The notes under the pieces: generated by a model
Databases searched by the model: none
Seen by the model: only the letters and a program-made list of their open reading frames with translations
Told to the model about the DNA's origin: nothing
NCBI RefSeq assembly: GCF_015500095.1
Contig: NZ_CP062983.1
Span: forward strand, 62,001 to 126,000
DNA length: 64,000 nt
Origin: Phototrophicus methaneseepsis
GTDB taxonomy: Bacteria > Chloroflexota > Anaerolineae > Aggregatilineales > Phototrophicaceae
Direction: 5' to 3'
Position numbers and translations under genes: made by a program
Shown: piece after piece, positions 56,349 to 64,000 of the stretch
Position numbering within the stretch: position 1 is the first letter of the stretch
Layout: every line of letters begins with the position of its first letter

Positions 56349-59300
56349 TTAGAGCATCTTCAAAGCTTTGCGATAAGTTTCCAGGGCATCCTGCAATTTA
56401 CCCTGACGCATCAGGCCATCGCCTAACACGCGGAACACAGCCGGGTTCTTCTTCTGTTCCTGGCTTTCCGTCAATTTTTGCAGATCACCGACGACTTCAT
56501 CCAGGGCCGTATTGGCTCGTACAACCGTTTCATAATCGGTCAGGCTGCTATCGACATCACCTTCGCTGATTTTGCTACGGGCACTCTGCAAAATAGCAGC
56601 CACATCAATCTGAGAAGCGGCCACTGGCACAGGCGCAGGCGAACGGGGTTCCTGCACCGGGACGACTGCGGTAGGCTGTGGCGCCGGGGCCAGGGGGGCC
56701 ATTTCTTCGGCAGGTTCTTCTTCCTCGGTCATTTCCCATTCAGGCTCTGCCTCAGATGCAGTCGATGTCGCATCAATGGTGATGACTTCTTCGTCTTCAT
56801 CCATCGTTTCGCGCAGCCAATCTGGGATGTCTTCCAGATCAACTTCAGCATCTACATTGAGCCACTCCGGCAGGTCTTCGTCATCAACTGTTTCAACAGA
56901 ATCCGTCTTCAACCAATCCGGGATGTCGTCGCTGGTCTCGTCATCGGTCAACCAATTGGGCAAATTAGGCTCAACAAGATCTTCTGATTCAACCGGGGCA
57001 ACGAATTCCGGCTCTGTGGCGAATGGTTCAGCAGATACGGCTGCCGTCGATAACCAATCCGGCACGACTTCAGCCTCGCCCAATGGCACATTGCGCTCAA
57101 GGGGTAACTCTGCTGTTTGTAAGGCCGCCGGAGCCGCCCCATGGCTGCTCTGTTCGTACCATGCAACCAGTTCTTGCTGACGGACCGGGTCTGCTTCGAC
57201 CTCAAAGGCCTGTACCCAGGTATCATCCGTATCCTGCGGCATATCGAAGGTTTGGGCAGCAGGCGATAGGGCCGATGGCGTCGGTGATAGCGTGTCCTCT
57301 TCACTGGCAAAGATATCTGCAAGGTCTGCGCTGGTATCTTCGTCCATATCCTCGCGCAGCCAATCCGGCAAATCCTCATCGGAGAAATCGAGTTCATCGG
57401 CCTCTTTGAGGAAATCATCGGAGTAAATATCCAGCGTGAGGTCGCTCGTCGCCTCTGATTCCAGCGTGGCTTCTTCTTCAACCATGGACATTGCTTCATC
57501 CATGGTGAGCACGTCCTCATCGCTATCTATTGGCGATACGGCTTCTGTCTCGCCTGTACCAAAGAGGCTCTCCAGCATGGCGTTGGCTTCTTCTGCGGAC
57601 ATATCGCTAGAAATAGCTTCCGTCGTCTGGGTATCGTCTGCCATTTGGGCTTGCAGCCAATCCGGGATTTCTGCCGGGATAGCCTCCGACGGGAGCTCTT
57701 CATATTCTTCCACGTCGTATTCTTCATCCTGGTCAGCAAACTGCTCGGCCTGTCTGAACATGGTATCGAAGAAATCTTCCATCTCCTCCGGGGAGACGTC
57801 TTCACCCGCATTCAAACGCGACATCGTGTCCTGGTTCATAGCTTCGGCAGAGAGTTCCTCACCAACGAAGTCATCTTCTTCAGCATCTTCGAAGTCGTAG
57901 CCTTCATCATCCTGGGGGTAAGACCTTGCCCCACCAACGCCAGCAGCCAGAGAATCCAGCCATGCGCTGGGATCGCTCATATCAAGCGATTCAACTTCTT
58001 CTTCATCCAGATAGGTATCTGGTTCTTCTTCATCCTCTTCAACAATGGGTTTACCGCCTGTCTCAAAGGAATAGGGTTCGTAGCCCGGGCCATCTGGCGT
58101 GAAGTTGCGCGGTCGCTCAATTTCTATATCGGCGGATGTGCTGAGTTCTTCACTCGGCGCGCCCTGATCACGGGCAAGGCTTTCTATCCAGGCGATTGGG
58201 TTTTCACCTTCGTCATCCTGGCTAGTTGTCGAAGAAGCCAGTGCATCCAGGTCGCCCAGGTTGCTGCTAATATCGCCCAGATCGAGATTTTCCAGATCAG
58301 GGACTGCATCACCCTTTGTTTCTTCCGCCAGGGCCGCTAACCAGCTCATCGGGTCAATTGTAGCGGCGGGCTGCTCGTCAGAGATGCTCTCCAGAGCAGA
58401 AAGATCCAGTTCTTCGACTTCTTCATCCCCGGCCAGTTCCTGCAACCACGACATCGGGTTCGCTGCCGTCGCTGCGGCTTCGCTCTCGTCTTCGTCGTCG
58501 TAATAATCTTCCTCGTCCGTCGTCAGGTCCGCGAGGCTAAATTCTTCGCCCAATTCTTCATCGGGTGCGCCCACTGTCGACCAGAGCGGCTGAGGTTCTT
58601 CTTCGTATTCGTCAGCTTCTTCATCCATGAGGAACTCATCAGCGTCGACTTCCATAACCTGTTCATCCAGGTCAATCGCGTCTTCCTCATCAAAATCAGA
58701 CGGGAAGTCGTCATCATCGACGTCATAAGTCAGATCATCGTCATATTCGCTGACCAGTTCATAATCCTCATCAGCGCTTTCATAGTCGAGGTCGTCTATA
58801 TCTTCAAAGCTCGGCAGCAAATCATCATCCTGCTGCGATGTGACCTGCTTCGCCGCTTTATCAGCCGCTTCTTTCGCCAGGTGGGCCTGCCACTTCTCCG
58901 CAGTCCAACCATAGGGGATATACTCACCCGTTGCGCTCAGGCGCTCGTCGTCTTCGGCAACTTCTTCAACGTCCATGTCAGCTTCTGTCAAGAAGCTCGA
59001 CGGATCAGCCCCCTGGCGCTTAGCCAGCGATTCCATCCAGCGCATGGCTTCTTCCGGCGACATATCCTCAAAGTCGGGCATTTCTTCGCTGAGTTCATCG
59101 GGGATACGCTCCTCGAATTCGTCATCCAGCCCAGCGATAGGCTCCGGCGTATACATGGGCTTTGTATGTTCTTCATCGCGCGAGGTATCCGGGATGCTGG
59201 CGGGTGGTGTCGCGGCTTGCCGTGCTGCTTTCTCGGCAGCTTCCTGGGCGAGGTGCGCGTCCCACTTTTCTTTCGTCCAACCATATGGGATATATTCGCC

Positions 59301-59462
59301 TGTTTCTCCTAGACGTTCATCGTCTTCAGAGACTTCCTCGACTTCCATATCCGCATCAGTGGTCAGGCTGGATGGATCAACACCCTGGCGCTTAGCCAGC
59401 GATTCCATCCAGCGCATCATTTCCTCTGGCGACATGTTATCGAAATCGGGCGTATCGGACAT
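56349..59462 (-). CDS. Large acidic protein with repeated Trp-Leu motifs and a C-terminal TPR
   Basis: 1037 residues, extremely rich in Asp and Glu, with no signal peptide or membrane helix, so probably cytoplasmic. The N-terminus holds two about 77-residue near-identical copies (6-82 and 130-206; DFDNMSPEEMMRWMESLAKR in copy 1). Further on, related short modules recur (NPMSWLQELAGDEE, DPMSWLAALAEE, NPIAWIESLARDQG, DPSAWLDSLA). Then come seven [ILV]P[DNE]WL motifs (IPDWLQ, LPDWLRE, VPDWLS, LPNWL, IPDWLK, LPEWL, IPDWLRE). The last 80 residues form TPR-like helices (FRVLGDGLMRQGKLQDALETYRKALKML). A scaffold or docking role is inferred. It is 157 bases downstream of a similar giant gene in the same direction. 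Confidence 0.85.
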   Translation of the reverse strand: MSDTPDFDNMSPEEMMRWMESLAKRQGVDPSSLTTDADMEVEEVSEDDERLGETGEYIPYGWTKEKWDAHLAQEAAEKAARQAATPPASIPDTSRDEEHTKPMYTPEPIAGLDDEFEERIPDELSEEMPDFEDMSPEEAMRWMESLAKRQGADPSSFLTEADMDVEEVAEDDERLSATGEYIPYGWTAEKWQAHLAKEAADKAAKQVTSQQDDDLLPSFEDIDDLDYESADEDYELVSEYDDDLTYDVDDDDFPSDFDEEDAIDLDEQVMEVDADEFLMDEEADEYEEEPQPLWSTVGAPDEELGEEFSLADLTTDEEDYYDDEDESEAAATAANPMSWLQELAGDEEVEELDLSALESISDEQPAATIDPMSWLAALAEETKGDAVPDLENLDLGDISSNLGDLDALASSTTSQDDEGENPIAWIESLARDQGAPSEELSTSADIEIERPRNFTPDGPGYEPYSFETGGKPIVEEDEEEPDTYLDEEEVESLDMSDPSAWLDSLAAGVGGARSYPQDDEGYDFEDAEEDDFVGEELSAEAMNQDTMSRLNAGEDVSPEEMEDFFDTMFRQAEQFADQDEEYDVEEYEELPSEAIPAEIPDWLQAQMADDTQTTEAISSDMSAEEANAMLESLFGTGETEAVSPIDSDEDVLTMDEAMSMVEEEATLESEATSDLTLDIYSDDFLKEADELDFSDEDLPDWLREDMDEDTSADLADIFASEEDTLSPTPSALSPAAQTFDMPQDTDDTWVQAFEVEADPVRQQELVAWYEQSSHGAAPAALQTAELPLERNVPLGEAEVVPDWLSTAAVSAEPFATEPEFVAPVESEDLVEPNLPNWLTDDETSDDIPDWLKTDSVETVDDEDLPEWLNVDAEVDLEDIPDWLRETMDEDEEVITIDATSTASEAEPEWEMTEEEEPAEEMAPLAPAPQPTAVVPVQEPRSPAPVPVAASQIDVAAILQSARSKISEGDVDSSLTDYETVVRANTALDEVVGDLQKLTESQEQKKNPAVFRVLGDGLMRQGKLQDALETYRKALKML
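58845..59075 (-). repeat. Second copy of the 77-residue N-terminal module
   Basis: Encodes residues 130-206 of the acidic protein. By eye about 61 of 77 positions are identical to the first copy at 59217-59447. Both copies keep SPEE.MRWMESLAKRQG and TGEYIPYGW. Confidence 0.85.
59217..59447 (-). repeat. First copy of the 77-residue N-terminal module
   Basis: Encodes residues 6-82. It aligns without gaps to residues 130-206, indicating a recent tandem duplication with a 47-residue spacer. Confidence 0.85.
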
Positions 59463-59619
59463 ACTGCTTATCCTTCTCGTCGCTGTAATCTGCGGCCCCT
59501 GGGCAATCTACTCCCTTATAATAAGGGCATAGACGCACCCATGCACATTAAGTCTCTGGCGCGTATGACACACTCTGATGCCTATTTAACCACGAAGCGT
59601 TTTCGACTTGATCATCGCT

Positions 59620-62600
59620 TTAGTATTTATCATCATCGTCATCAAGATCATCAAAGTCGAAGTTATCCAGGTCAAGATCGAGGCCTAAGTCATCGAGCAA
59701 GTCATCAATCGTGCCTTCTGGCGCCAAATCGTCGTCATCTTCATACAGATCATCTTCAACTTCTTCTGTGAAGTCGGTCGGATCTTCAAAACGTATCTCA
59801 TTGGTATCATAGATGTCATAATCGTCATCGTCGTCGTATTCGTCGATGTCGACTGCATCTTCTGAGAACATTGAAGCATTGACGCTCGCCATCGTCCCCG
59901 TCACCAGCGGCCCGACCGAAGGCCGATCATCATCACGCGCCCAGGCTGGCAAATGACTAAATTGGAAGCGCGGTTGCTCAACAGTCTGCTGTTGTGGGCT
60001 TGTAGGCAGAGGTGGCGGTGCTCCGGCGCGCGTTTCTTCATCGACAATATCAACCAACCAGGCAAAATCATCTTCAGAAGGCACTTCGCCAACAGAGGCG
60101 CGGCGACGATGTTCACTTGTCGCTTCGCCATCTTCTTCAACATCTTCATCATCAACGCCACGAGCCTCAAAGTCCAGTTCTAGGCCCGGCACCAACTGGT
60201 TCAACCAATCCGGCGCATTATCTGCACCAATGACGGCGATCTGTTCATCATTGGATTCTTCGTCCAGGGCAGCAACGAGGTCTTCAACTGTCTCTGGGTC
60301 TTCTCCGAGGTTTTCGACTTCTGTCGCCGTCAGATGAGCCTCTTCTGGCGATTCCATATCCTCAGCACCCATATAAGGCGATTCGTCATAGATTTCTTCA
60401 TCCGACGCCTCGTCTTCAAGTTCCGCTAATGGGTCGTAGTCGTCATAATCCGCCTGTGCGAAGTCGTCCTCATCATCATCTTCATCCTGCACAGCGACCA
60501 TACCCAATGCAGCAACGCCAGCCGTTGTCCCGGCAGCCAGTTCGTCGTAATCTTCTTCGTCGTCTTCTTCACTCTGCGATGCCTGAACCGATTCTTCGTC
60601 CAGTTCACCCGTCAGGGCATCTTCAAGCTCTTGCATGAAGGCAGCTTCTGCGGCTGCGTCCGCTTCGGGGTCGGGCGGCTCCATATCGCTCAGCCAATCT
60701 GGTTCCGCCGAGTTTGCATAGACCGACTCATCAGATTCTTCTTCTGTTTCGTCCGTATCTTCGTCGCTAACGTCTTGCAACCAATCTGGCTCTGCTGCGA
60801 CCAGATCATCCGGCGTGAAGGCATCTTCATCAGCGCCGCTGTCTTCCATCTCCGTCAGCCAATCTGGTTCTGAGGAGGTTTCTCCAGCGTCTGTGGTGCC
60901 TTCTTCTTCGTCATCTTCATAGCCACCCTGGGAATAAATATCCTCCACGTCGGAAAGCCAGGAAGCATCTTCAAACTCAGCGGGGTCCACATCTTCTACC
61001 CACTCCGGCAGATCATCCATGGCATCCAGTTCACCACGTTGATGCTGAATGCTGGTGAGCAAGCCCGTCATGCCAACGGCGCTAGATGGCTCTTCATCCT
61101 CATCTTCGTCAGATTGATCCTGACCGAAGCGCATCGTCACACCTGGGGAGACGTTTTCCTCTTCTTCCTCGTCACCAAAATCCATATCGCTAAACGCGTT
61201 GTCGAAATCGCCAAAATTGTCCTCAGGTTCGGCGGTTTCATCCGTCTCATCCTCGTAGGACATATCCTGCAGCCAATCCGCATTGCCTGCGACGAGTTCA
61301 CTCGTATCATCGACCATCTCGACATCTTGCAATTCAGCATCTTCGTCATCGAAGTCGATCTCTTCAAGCTCTGATTCGTCGAAGCTGCTATCGTCGAAGT
61401 TGCTATCGCCAAAGGCATTATCGAAATCGGAAAACAGGTCTTCGACAGATTCTTCTGCGTCGATTTCCGCTTCAGGCTCACCAGATATCACGTCTTCAGA
61501 TTCTGGCTCTTCCTCGGATATGCCTTGCAGCCAGGTCGTATCACCAGCGACGAGGTCGCTCGTATCATCGACCATCTCGACATCTTCCGTCTCCGGCTCT
61601 TCTTCACTGCCGAAGCTGCCAAAGTCAATCTCGTCGTATTCGCTTTCGCTGTATTCGCTTTCATCAAAGCTACTATCATCGAAACTGCTATTGCCAAAGG
61701 CATTGTCGAAATCAGCAAACAGGTCCTCGACAGATTCATCGTCGGCATCGTCGGCGTCTTCTTCAGCATCTTCTTCCGACGAGAGTTCTTGCAGCCAATC
61801 TGTGTTACCACCGATCAGGTCGCCCATGTCTTCGGACATTTGGACGTCTTCTGGCTCTTCTTCACTGTCGAAGCTGCCAAAGTCGGTATCGCCATATGCA
61901 CTTTCGTCAAAAGTGCTGTCGAAGTCGGTGAACATATCCGCTTCAGACGCTTCAGAATCTGTCTCCTCTTCTGAGGAGAGGCCTTGCAGCCAATCTGAAT
62001 TACCCCCGATTAAATCGTCGGTGTCATCAACCATCTCGACATCAATTTCGACGACGTCATCACTTTCGTCACGCGCTTCGCTGCTGAGCCAATCCAGGCC
62101 GTCTAATTCGGCCATATCTTGCAGGGTTTCTTCATCCTGCATAGCTTCCTGATCTTGCAACTCAGCAGGCTCGTTTTCGTCTTCTTCGCTGAGCCAATCC
62201 ATATCCGCAGCAAGCAAGTCATCCTCGCCCTGTGCGTCGTCACCCTCATCCGAATCTTCATCCGAATCCAACTCTTGTAACCAGTCGGTATTCATGGAGA
62301 AGGGATCATCGCTGTCATCAGCATCATCAGAGAGCCAATCGCCGCTGCTATCCTCTGGATTATCCTCTGGCTCCAAATCTTCTGGTTCCCAGTCGTAGTC
62401 TGATCGATCGGGCATATCGTCCTGCCAATCTATAGTGTCGGATACAGGTTCGTCTAGCGGTTGATCTAGTATATCCTGAACAGAAATAGCTTCGTCCAGG
62501 GTTGTATCTTCATCTGTCGTATCGTTGAAGTCAAAGTCAAAATCATCGTCGTCAAAGTCATCATCGTCATCGCCACCCAGCAAACCTTCGAACAACTCAC

Positions 62601-64000
62601 CCGTATTGATGACGTCATCCGTGCCGGGTTCTTCGTCGATGAGTGCGTTATCACCTAGAGGCGTATCTTCTAATGGCGCTTCTCGTGTCGCTTCAGTATC
62701 AGCCTCTGCGCCGGGATCGAGTTCTTCGCCAAAGTCGATATTATCAAATGCATCGTCATCGTCGCTGCCGAACAAATCATCGTCGAATTCCTCAGCATTG
62801 AAAGTGTTGACGTCGAAAGAATCCGCGTCTAATGAATTCGCCTCGAACGAATCCACATCAAAGGCCTCTGCATCTATCGAATCCGCTTCGAAGGTGTGGA
62901 AATCAAATGCGCTGTCGTCAAATTCAGCGGCGTCTTCAGAAGTATCTTCGGCATCATCTTCAGCAGTCATGGCATCATTAAGCTCGAAGGGATCCGAGAA
63001 AGATTCCTGGTCAAAACCGAGGTCGTCGTAGCCGGTGTCGTCGGATTCTTCATCCATCAAAATGGCATCAAACGCCTGCTCGATGTCATCCACTGTGACA
63101 TCATCATCTTCCATCACATCGACATCTGAAAACCACTCGTCTTCAGTATCATCCTGCGCAGTGTCCAGCGCTTCTACCTGTAAACTATCCCCTGCGCTGG
63201 TACCTTCTTCAGCAGCTTCTTCATCCTGGGAATCAAAATCTTGAGAATCAAAATCTGCGCCCCATACTTCTTGAAGGTCATCTGGCAGAGAGCCTGTTTC
63301 CGTCAGGTTTTCCATGGCGAAGAATTCTGCTAGGGCGCTGTCGTCCCAGTCGGATTCCTCATCGTCATCAGATGCATATTCGTCAAAAAAGTTATCGTCC
63401 TCATCTGAGGCCGCCCCGCCATAGGGGTAATCGGCTTCAGAAGATTCGATAAGTTCGGCGCCACTATTCTCTAACCAGGCTAAGGGGTCGTCCGTATCGC
63501 TGGATTCTTCGCTGGCATCCAGGCGAGATGTCGGCGTGAAGTTCTGCGCAATCTCGTCATATTCTTCCTGGCTGAGCGCATCTTCATTGAGTTCGATGCC
63601 ACTTGCTTCTAGCCAAGCCAGGGCATCCTGTTCATCCGCATTAATGCCAACTTCATCGTCGGGGATGTCTTCAAAAAACCGCGGGACCTCACGCTCAGAT
63701 TCTTCTACCAATTCAATGCCACTTTGGTGCATCCAGGCTAAGGGGTCTTCATCGTCTATGATGGCATCTGCATCTTCAATATCCGCAAAATCCGACTCAT
63801 CAGATGCAGCAGGAGCCTCTACATCCTCATCTTGCAGGTCAAACCAACTCGTATCAATTTCCGCCCGTTCGCCCGCTGCAGATGATGCCTCGACGGACTC
63901 ATCAAACGACGACTCGCCAAACGACGATTCGTCAAAAGTCGTTTCATCAAAGTCCGCTTCATCATCGAAATGTGTCAGTTCAGCTTCAGAATATTCTGTC
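59620..64000 (-). CDS. Giant acidic repeat protein, 5' end beyond the window
   Basis: The reading frame is open from the stop at 59620 to the window edge (about 1460 codons), so the methionine at 63732 is probably internal. No transmembrane segment or signal is seen. Asp and Glu dominate. Repeated elements: DPLAWxxxSGxEL (three near the visible N-terminus); about 14 Trp-Leu motifs of the type DWLQELSSEED; four copies of a composite module (EDVEMVDDTSDLVAG...WLQ followed by FxDFDNAFGxSxFDDSSFDES); five-residue periodic stretches; and a C-terminal Asp-rich end. Pairs with the adjacent 1037-residue protein. Function unknown; a multivalent scaffold is inferred. Confidence 0.8.
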   Translation of the reverse strand, partial: TEYSEAELTHFDDEADFDETTFDESSFGESSFDESVEASSAAGERAEIDTSWFDLQDEDVEAPAASDESDFADIEDADAIIDDEDPLAWMHQSGIELVEESEREVPRFFEDIPDDEVGINADEQDALAWLEASGIELNEDALSQEEYDEIAQNFTPTSRLDASEESSDTDDPLAWLENSGAELIESSEADYPYGGAASDEDDNFFDEYASDDDEESDWDDSALAEFFAMENLTETGSLPDDLQEVWGADFDSQDFDSQDEEAAEEGTSAGDSLQVEALDTAQDDTEDEWFSDVDVMEDDDVTVDDIEQAFDAILMDEESDDTGYDDLGFDQESFSDPFELNDAMTAEDDAEDTSEDAAEFDDSAFDFHTFEADSIDAEAFDVDSFEANSLDADSFDVNTFNAEEFDDDLFGSDDDDAFDNIDFGEELDPGAEADTEATREAPLEDTPLGDNALIDEEPGTDDVINTGELFEGLLGGDDDDDFDDDDFDFDFNDTTDEDTTLDEAISVQDILDQPLDEPVSDTIDWQDDMPDRSDYDWEPEDLEPEDNPEDSSGDWLSDDADDSDDPFSMNTDWLQELDSDEDSDEGDDAQGEDDLLAADMDWLSEEDENEPAELQDQEAMQDEETLQDMAELDGLDWLSSEARDESDDVVEIDVEMVDDTDDLIGGNSDWLQGLSSEEETDSEASEADMFTDFDSTFDESAYGDTDFGSFDSEEEPEDVQMSEDMGDLIGGNTDWLQELSSEEDAEEDADDADDESVEDLFADFDNAFGNSSFDDSSFDESEYSESEYDEIDFGSFGSEEEPETEDVEMVDDTSDLVAGDTTWLQGISEEEPESEDVISGEPEAEIDAEESVEDLFSDFDNAFGDSNFDDSSFDESELEEIDFDDEDAELQDVEMVDDTSELVAGNADWLQDMSYEDETDETAEPEDNFGDFDNAFSDMDFGDEEEEENVSPGVTMRFGQDQSDEDEDEEPSSAVGMTGLLTSIQHQRGELDAMDDLPEWVEDVDPAEFEDASWLSDVEDIYSQGGYEDDEEEGTTDAGETSSEPDWLTEMEDSGADEDAFTPDDLVAAEPDWLQDVSDEDTDETEEESDESVYANSAEPDWLSDMEPPDPEADAAAEAAFMQELEDALTGELDEESVQASQSEEDDEEDYDELAAGTTAGVAALGMVAVQDEDDDEDDFAQADYDDYDPLAELEDEASDEEIYDESPYMGAEDMESPEEAHLTATEVENLGEDPETVEDLVAALDEESNDEQIAVIGADNAPDWLNQLVPGLELDFEARGVDDEDVEEDGEATSEHRRRASVGEVPSEDDFAWLVDIVDEETRAGAPPPLPTSPQQQTVEQPRFQFSHLPAWARDDDRPSVGPLVTGTMASVNASMFSEDAVDIDEYDDDDDYDIYDTNEIRFEDPTDFTEEVEDDLYEDDDDLAPEGTIDDLLDDLGLDLDLDNFDFDDLDDDDDKY
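61160..62060 (-). repeat. Four-copy composite module in the giant acidic protein
   Basis: Each copy encodes [ED]V.M..D..[DE]L..G...WLQ..S.E followed by a short acidic linker and a phenylalanine-rich pentad stretch. At the DNA level the phrase ATCGACCATCTCGACATC recurs at 61311 and 61567, with a one-base variant near 62026. Copies are roughly 70-95 codons long. Confidence 0.75.
62780..62904 (-). repeat. Five-residue periodic repeat (FDADS type)
   Basis: About eight successive units of the pattern [FIL][DEN][AV][DEN][STAE], e.g. SFEAN, SLDAD, SFDVN, TFNAE. Similar shorter stretches lie at about 61610-61700 and 63901-63990 (TFDES, SFGES, SFDES). Confidence 0.75.

Follow-up and report, generated by a model that had tools for sequence, protein, structure and literature searches.

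A divided TPR protein family of Chloroflexota with a repeated tryptophan motif and a candidate link to Ras-like GTPases

Two adjacent minus-strand genes, P1 and P2, at the end of the window (the whole stretch of 64,000 nucleotides of Phototrophicus methaneseepsis DNA analysed here) encode the C- and N-terminal halves of one family of Chloroflexota proteins, in which an N-terminal and a C-terminal TPR domain (N-TPR and C-TPR) flank a disordered tail studded with a tryptophan motif. One and the same motif is found on two unrelated proteins across the phylum, the scaffold and a membrane protein, and genomes that lack it tend to lack a Ras-like GTPase as well. We tentatively read the family as a multivalent, membrane-tethered TPR scaffold, SgmX-like in layout, that might be tied to an MglA/MglB-like GTPase module, and give this reading a probability of about 0.45. 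A hallmark of eukaryotic cell organisation is the disordered chain that carries many copies of a short docking motif; in bacteria, to our knowledge, such chains have rarely been described. If the GTPase link holds, it would provide a testable bacterial counterpart of scaffolding by Trp motifs, TPRs and small GTPases, and a first functional handle on an uncharacterised family that spans a phylum.

The P1 and P2 genes and their family

P1 (positions 56349-59462 of the window, minus strand like all features of the two genes given below) encodes 1037 residues, an acidic motif-bearing tail followed by a C-terminal TPR domain. P2, 1962 residues long when counted from its ATG, extends from position 59620 to about 65508, past the end of the window (to about 127508 on contig C1 of genome G000; 3721-9609 of L002). 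The part inside the window (59620-64000) covers residues ~504-1962, which form an acidic motif tail, while the first 503 residues including an N-terminal domain of seven TPRs lie beyond it. Asp and Glu make up 30% of P1 and about 37% of the P2 tail, and the calculated pI is 4.05 for both proteins. Judged by hydropathy alone, neither has a strong transmembrane segment or signal peptide (maximum 19-residue Kyte-Doolittle values of 1.10 and 1.23). The initial annotation, which had described two adjacent leftward genes for acidic, cytoplasmic-looking proteins rich in short W[LIM] elements, was right on these points. Its estimates of about 13 and 19 such elements compare with 13 in P1 and 21 in the P2 tail, against means of 2.96 (maximum 9) and 3.41 (maximum 11) in 3000 shuffles. 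The two motif flavours that it distinguished are both real but unequally distributed: P[DE]WL occurs six times in P1 and five times in P2, compared with 0.03 in shuffles of each, whereas [DN]PxxW[LIM]xxLA is confined to P1 (four copies versus 0.00 in shuffles; none in P2). The regular spacing that it saw has to be given up, since the coefficients of variation of the intervals, 0.74 for P1 and 1.03 for P2, are no more regular than random placement (0.89 and 0.93).

Within P1, the four [DN]PxxW[LIM]xxLA motifs lie in one block (57933-58448, residues 339-510) with a short helix predicted at each, and a second block (56793-57659, residues 602-890) contains eight W[LV] motifs, six of which have the P[DE]WL form. 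Close to the start of the protein a module of about 67 residues is present twice, at 59250-59450 (residues 5-71; SPEEMMRWMESLAKRQG ... EYIPYGWTKEKW) and at 58878-59078 (residues 129-195), the copies being 81% identical in amino acids and 75% in DNA; as both are also present in the relatives L055 and L059, the duplication is not recent. In P2, a trio of motifs, DPLAWMHQSG, DALAWLEASG and DPLAWLENSG, occupies 63439-63735 (residues 592-690), the densest DWL/PDWL region spans 60679-62337 (residues 1058-1610), and the C-terminal motifs NAPDWLNxxVPGL and [DS]DFxWLxDIVDEE at 59989-60207 (residues 1768-1840) keep their positions in order-level orthologues. Tandem Repeats Finder (TRF) detected no more than four short 15-bp arrays in the DNA of P1 and P2. 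We therefore rejected recent tandem duplication of DNA as the origin of the window's motifs, most copies of which must be old.

In most of the class the family is represented by a single gene encoding an N-TPR of about 230 residues, the motif tail and the C-TPR, and it is in the order to which the window belongs that two adjacent genes are found, so that the two separate giant proteins of the initial annotation are better described as the products of one split gene. The start of P2 matches Pfam TPR_19 (E=5e-15, 56 bits, cut-off 25), and in the model of its close orthologue in L055 the N-TPR is predicted with a mean pLDDT of 92.5 as 14 TPR helices, that is, seven TPRs. At the end of P1 (56355-56603, residues 954-1036) TPR_2 reaches 21.1 bits and thus stays under its cut-off of 27; the fold, five helices that make up the module conserved at the C-terminal end of family members, is nevertheless predicted confidently (pLDDT 85-94). 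The TPR already proposed for the end of one protein agrees with this, and the N-terminal TPR domain of P2, outside the window, comes in addition. Only generic TPR models in Pfam and NCBIfam match P1 and P2, with no curated family beyond TPR, in agreement with the earlier impression that no described system was recognisable. A match to 3-oxoacyl-ACP synthase (19.7 bits, cut-off 342) was dismissed as noise in an acidic region. Literature searches, including combinations of Chloroflexi with roadblock or tetratricopeptide, returned no paper on the Chloroflexota scaffold family, and we have filed it among the TPR scaffolds linked to bacterial Ras-like GTPases, as a variant which no described family covers in the libraries searched.

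With the last 93 residues of P1 as query, the C-TPR was detected in a single copy in each of 54 among 150 class genomes, typically at the end of long acidic W-motif proteins; since this query misses diverged scaffolds, presence judged from the C-TPR alone is misleading and was corrected by a search with an N-TPR consensus, which has matches in 89 of the 150. In the phylum as a whole the N-TPR was detected in 167 of 400 genomes at 1e-20, several genomes being incomplete MAGs and all presence calls depending on the E-value threshold. A contig search with a four-sequence alignment as query showed that the relatives include MAGs of Anaerolineae as well as isolates of Ktedonobacteria, for instance Dictyobacter aurantiacus and Tengunoibacter tsumagoiensis. 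An Anaerolineae-type locus is also carried by JAHHHY010000012.1 (L064), whose record is labelled Pleurocapsa minor, a cyanobacterium; it is probably a mislabelled or mis-binned MAG. As a separate observation, a divergently transcribed gene for a protein of about 390 residues (PPTLxDFWxGRAEWV...) is repeatedly found upstream of P2 (L002 9831-11000; L055 8095-9249). Its L055 copy had no match in Pfam, and it is also found 5′ of the P2 orthologues in L036, L057, L058 and L061-L063.

The tail motif and the membrane protein that shares it

The tryptophan of the motif is kept far better than its surroundings. In two orthologues of P1 it is retained in 14 of 14 motifs, and the residue after it in 13 of 14, at background identities of 60% and 36%; for P2 the figures are 20 of 22 and 18 of 22, compared with backgrounds of 36% and 25%. 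These values are somewhat inflated because the aligner favours Trp matches. In the same alignments, however, the more distant P1 pair keeps Phe and Tyr poorly (9 of 25 and 6 of 21). AlphaFold2 places 641 of the 1037 residues of P1 below a pLDDT of 50 and puts 12 of the 14 motif tryptophans in predicted helices, mostly in the first turn, while helix makes up 30% of the tail (p=2.7e-5). The model supports a disordered chain with short helices at the motifs for the tail of P1.

Two motif alphabets are in use in scaffold tails. Anaerolineae scaffolds are rich in P.W[LIMV]; the number of motifs varies from about 4 to 50 per class locus, and tandem units are plain to see in some orthologues, as with ELPAWLSEMGEE in L040. 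Ktedonobacteria scaffolds contain P.W[LIMV] in 2-7 copies, as opposed to about 0.4 in shuffles. These Ktedonobacteria orthologues have only 13-16% Asp and Glu, so that acidity is not the defining property of the family. In five families that we infer to be Chloroflexia (f64, f74, f100, f103 and f121; L122-L127 and L149-L153), P.W[LIMV] is nearly absent from the scaffold tails, which carry 7-32 copies of PF[ST][LFIM] with the consensus PFSL[ED][ED]LGL.

Searched by pattern, the window's genome yielded a third W-tail protein, unrelated to the scaffold and encoded outside the window (C1:826785-831338 of G000, minus strand; L163 2786-7339) next to genes for MutL (PF13941) and a DUF6754 protein. 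Its acidic N-terminal tail bears the DWL/PDWL motifs and is followed by a transmembrane segment, then by an outer domain and SH3_3 repeats. Arg and Lys precede the transmembrane segment (more before than after it in 45 of 58 orthologues), which suggests that the tail is cytoplasmic. Orthologues are present in 68 of 150 class genomes, and those that bear the motif have 1-13 copies with the same consensus and profile as in the scaffold; its counterparts in the PFSL families keep 12-26 PxWL motifs. Presence of the motif agrees between scaffold and membrane protein in all 46 genomes in which both could be read (35 with the motif on both, 11 on neither), and counting by taxonomic family gives the same picture (17 both, 5 neither, none discordant; Fisher 3.8e-5). 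The initial annotation had imagined a multivalent scaffold of regularly spaced hydrophobic beads on an acidic chain. The conserved motif tryptophans, the predicted disorder and helices and the motif on a membrane protein favour the multivalent part of that picture, while the regular spacing and the acidity as its hallmark fall away. A TG[LI]TG motif was also seen in both P2 (STGLTGML) and the third W-tail protein (ERTGLTGNLNW).

Gene neighbours and co-occurrence with a Ras-like GTPase

For 61 scaffold loci, same-strand neighbours within the 1.8 kb downstream were counted. The ndk gene was found there in 48 loci and a Roadblock/LC7 gene (Pfam Robl_LC7, E=1e-14) in 21, nearly always between scaffold and ndk and nearly always outside the class of the window: the Roadblock gene sits beside the scaffold in Ktedonobacteria and several other families of the phylum, but not at that position in the window's own class. 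Often rsfS is close as well. An adjacent ndk is absent in the window species, where it is located at C1:1361991, and in its close relative L055; being a housekeeping gene, ndk may be a passive neighbour.

The genome of the window encodes a Ras-like GTPase (C1:4949245-4949778; L161, 9243-10774 region) adjoining genes for an alpha/beta hydrolase, which is its neighbour in L053 too, and for a DUF4388 protein. The GTPase matches Thermus thermophilus MglA (3t12) over the full domain (residues 16-191, E=1.2e-6), and an Arf GTPase matches it slightly better, over part of the length. The same genome has three Roadblock proteins, and scaffold, Roadblocks and GTPase all lie at separate places. Among the 150 class genomes the GTPase was found in 71, in seven of which it is situated 322-680 bp from a Roadblock gene, a coupling that is not seen in the window's genome. 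It is far from the scaffold except in one genus (6-7 kb).

Across genomes, the presence of the motif tracks that of the GTPase. All 35 motif-positive genomes have the GTPase and 34 of them a Roadblock protein, whereas the 11 motif-negative genomes have neither. Eighteen further genomes, in which the membrane protein alone was read, comprise 14 with motif, GTPase and Roadblock, one without all three (G097), and three (G034, G044 and G091) in which the motif is present while GTPase and Roadblock went undetected, G044 being only 82% complete. Placed on the membrane-protein tree, the motif shows four changes, two of them on starred branches, and in nearly all cases the GTPase changes the same way. 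Shared descent confounds the co-occurrence, and with two to four independent events a pair test cannot reach significance; the link between motif and GTPase that may be drawn from the presence profiles is suggestive, not conclusive.

A candidate scaffold and its rivals

The closest known working model, by analogy, is SgmX of Myxococcus xanthus, a cytoplasmic protein of 1060 residues with five N-terminal and three C-terminal TPRs and no known domain between them, which binds MglA-GTP (PMC7519303). Our comparison with SgmX and its homologue Bd2492, both MglA effectors, is one of layout and not of sequence: TPRs at both ends, a middle part without known domains, about 1000 residues and a cytoplasmic location; the Chloroflexota concerned likewise have an MglA-like GTPase and Roadblock proteins. 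The one-gene orthologues possess both TPR blocks, which in the window are divided between P2 and P1. Unlike SgmX, the Chloroflexota scaffold has dense PxWLxxL (or PFSL) repeats, strong acidity in Anaerolineae, a gene that in the window's order is divided in two, and synteny with ndk and Roadblock. The Roadblock genes between scaffold and ndk and the GTPase-Roadblock pairs of the class resemble MglA/MglB modules; the unlinked genes of the window's genome depart from them.

On this basis we would propose the following mechanism. A long disordered tail, encoded in one gene or, in the order of the window, across two adjacent ones, joins the folded N-terminal seven-TPR domain to the short C-terminal one. 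Along it, the motif [acidic]-[LIV]-P-[DE]-W-L-x-x-L, predicted to form a helix of one to three turns, would serve as a low-affinity site, the many copies together gathering a common partner, while clients or assembly partners might be held by the TPR ends. Through its own copy of the motif tail, the membrane protein would recruit this common partner to the membrane. The pathway concerned would most likely be a Ras-like GTPase/Roadblock (MglA/MglB-like) module, and the scaffold could, like SgmX, link the GTPase to a membrane-associated machine and organise that machine in the cell, with a possible role in polarity or at the cell surface. A more specific version, which we regard as unlikely, makes PxWLxxL a linear-motif code, carried in many copies by at least two unrelated proteins and read by a Ras-like GTPase/Roadblock module, so that a multivalent assembly forms at the membrane; in one branch of the phylum the scaffold motif would then have been rewritten to PFSLxDLGL, with PxWL kept on the membrane protein.

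The main rival of the GTPase-module reading supposes that the reader is the family itself: the concave groove of its own N-TPR or C-TPR would bind the PxWLxxL peptides of the membrane protein and of further scaffold molecules, so that a network tethered to the membrane assembles itself, and the correlation with the GTPase would reflect shared ancestry only. There is a precedent in kinesin light chain, whose TPR grooves bind Trp-acidic motifs of cargo (PMC6224480) and where, as here, a TPR domain goes with a Trp motif that has acidic flanks and lies in a linear chain; that system is eukaryotic, its sequences are unrelated to the Chloroflexota scaffold, and for the latter motif-TPR binding is an analogy. 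Motif and TPR do occur within one protein, an N-TPR was present wherever the motifs were checked by the N-TPR search, and family f17, which has no N-TPR, also has no motifs on its membrane protein. Yet the N-TPR persists in f38, f24 and f42 (weakly in f40) where the motifs are gone from both proteins, which argues mildly against it as the sole reader, and the scaffold of the PFSL families is nearly devoid of the W motif that their membrane protein carries. The first motif after the N-TPR is not confidently placed in the AlphaFold2 model either (pLDDT 61-68), although these models come without interdomain confidence and placement of motifs on TPRs cannot be read from them. We consider self-reading rather unlikely, though less so than the other rivals.

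Two further explanations seem much harder to maintain. The scaffold might organise NDK together with the products of nearby genes, among them the ribosome silencing factor RsfS, in an assembly for nucleotide metabolism or translation, with no part for a signalling GTPase. That ndk is the most constant neighbour and rsfS often a close one would fit this proposal, but in the window species and its relatives ndk has moved away with no visible effect on motif conservation, and the motifs also occur on a membrane protein from an unrelated gene cluster; we hold it to be very unlikely. Finally, the acidic tail could be filler drifting neutrally, and the W motifs by-products of repeat expansion, as the widely varying motif number and the tandem units in L040 might suggest. 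This least probable of the readings is already disfavoured by the complete retention of the P1 motif tryptophans at a background of 36%, by the shortness of the 15-bp arrays, which makes most copies old, and by the presence of the same motif on two unrelated proteins.

Other TPR proteins share some features with the scaffold. FimV-type pole-organising proteins have, like the scaffold, an acidic region and a C-terminal TPR motif; they were ruled out because the LysM domain and transmembrane segment of FimV are absent from P1 and P2. The predicted N-TPR fold resembles many TPR structures and by itself carries no functional information. Among them is MamA, the magnetosome TPR scaffold, with a Z-score of 13.7 over 129 residues of the first TPRs (rmsd 1.9), a value tied with designed TPRs; MamA has no motif tail, and the match reflects the generic TPR fold.
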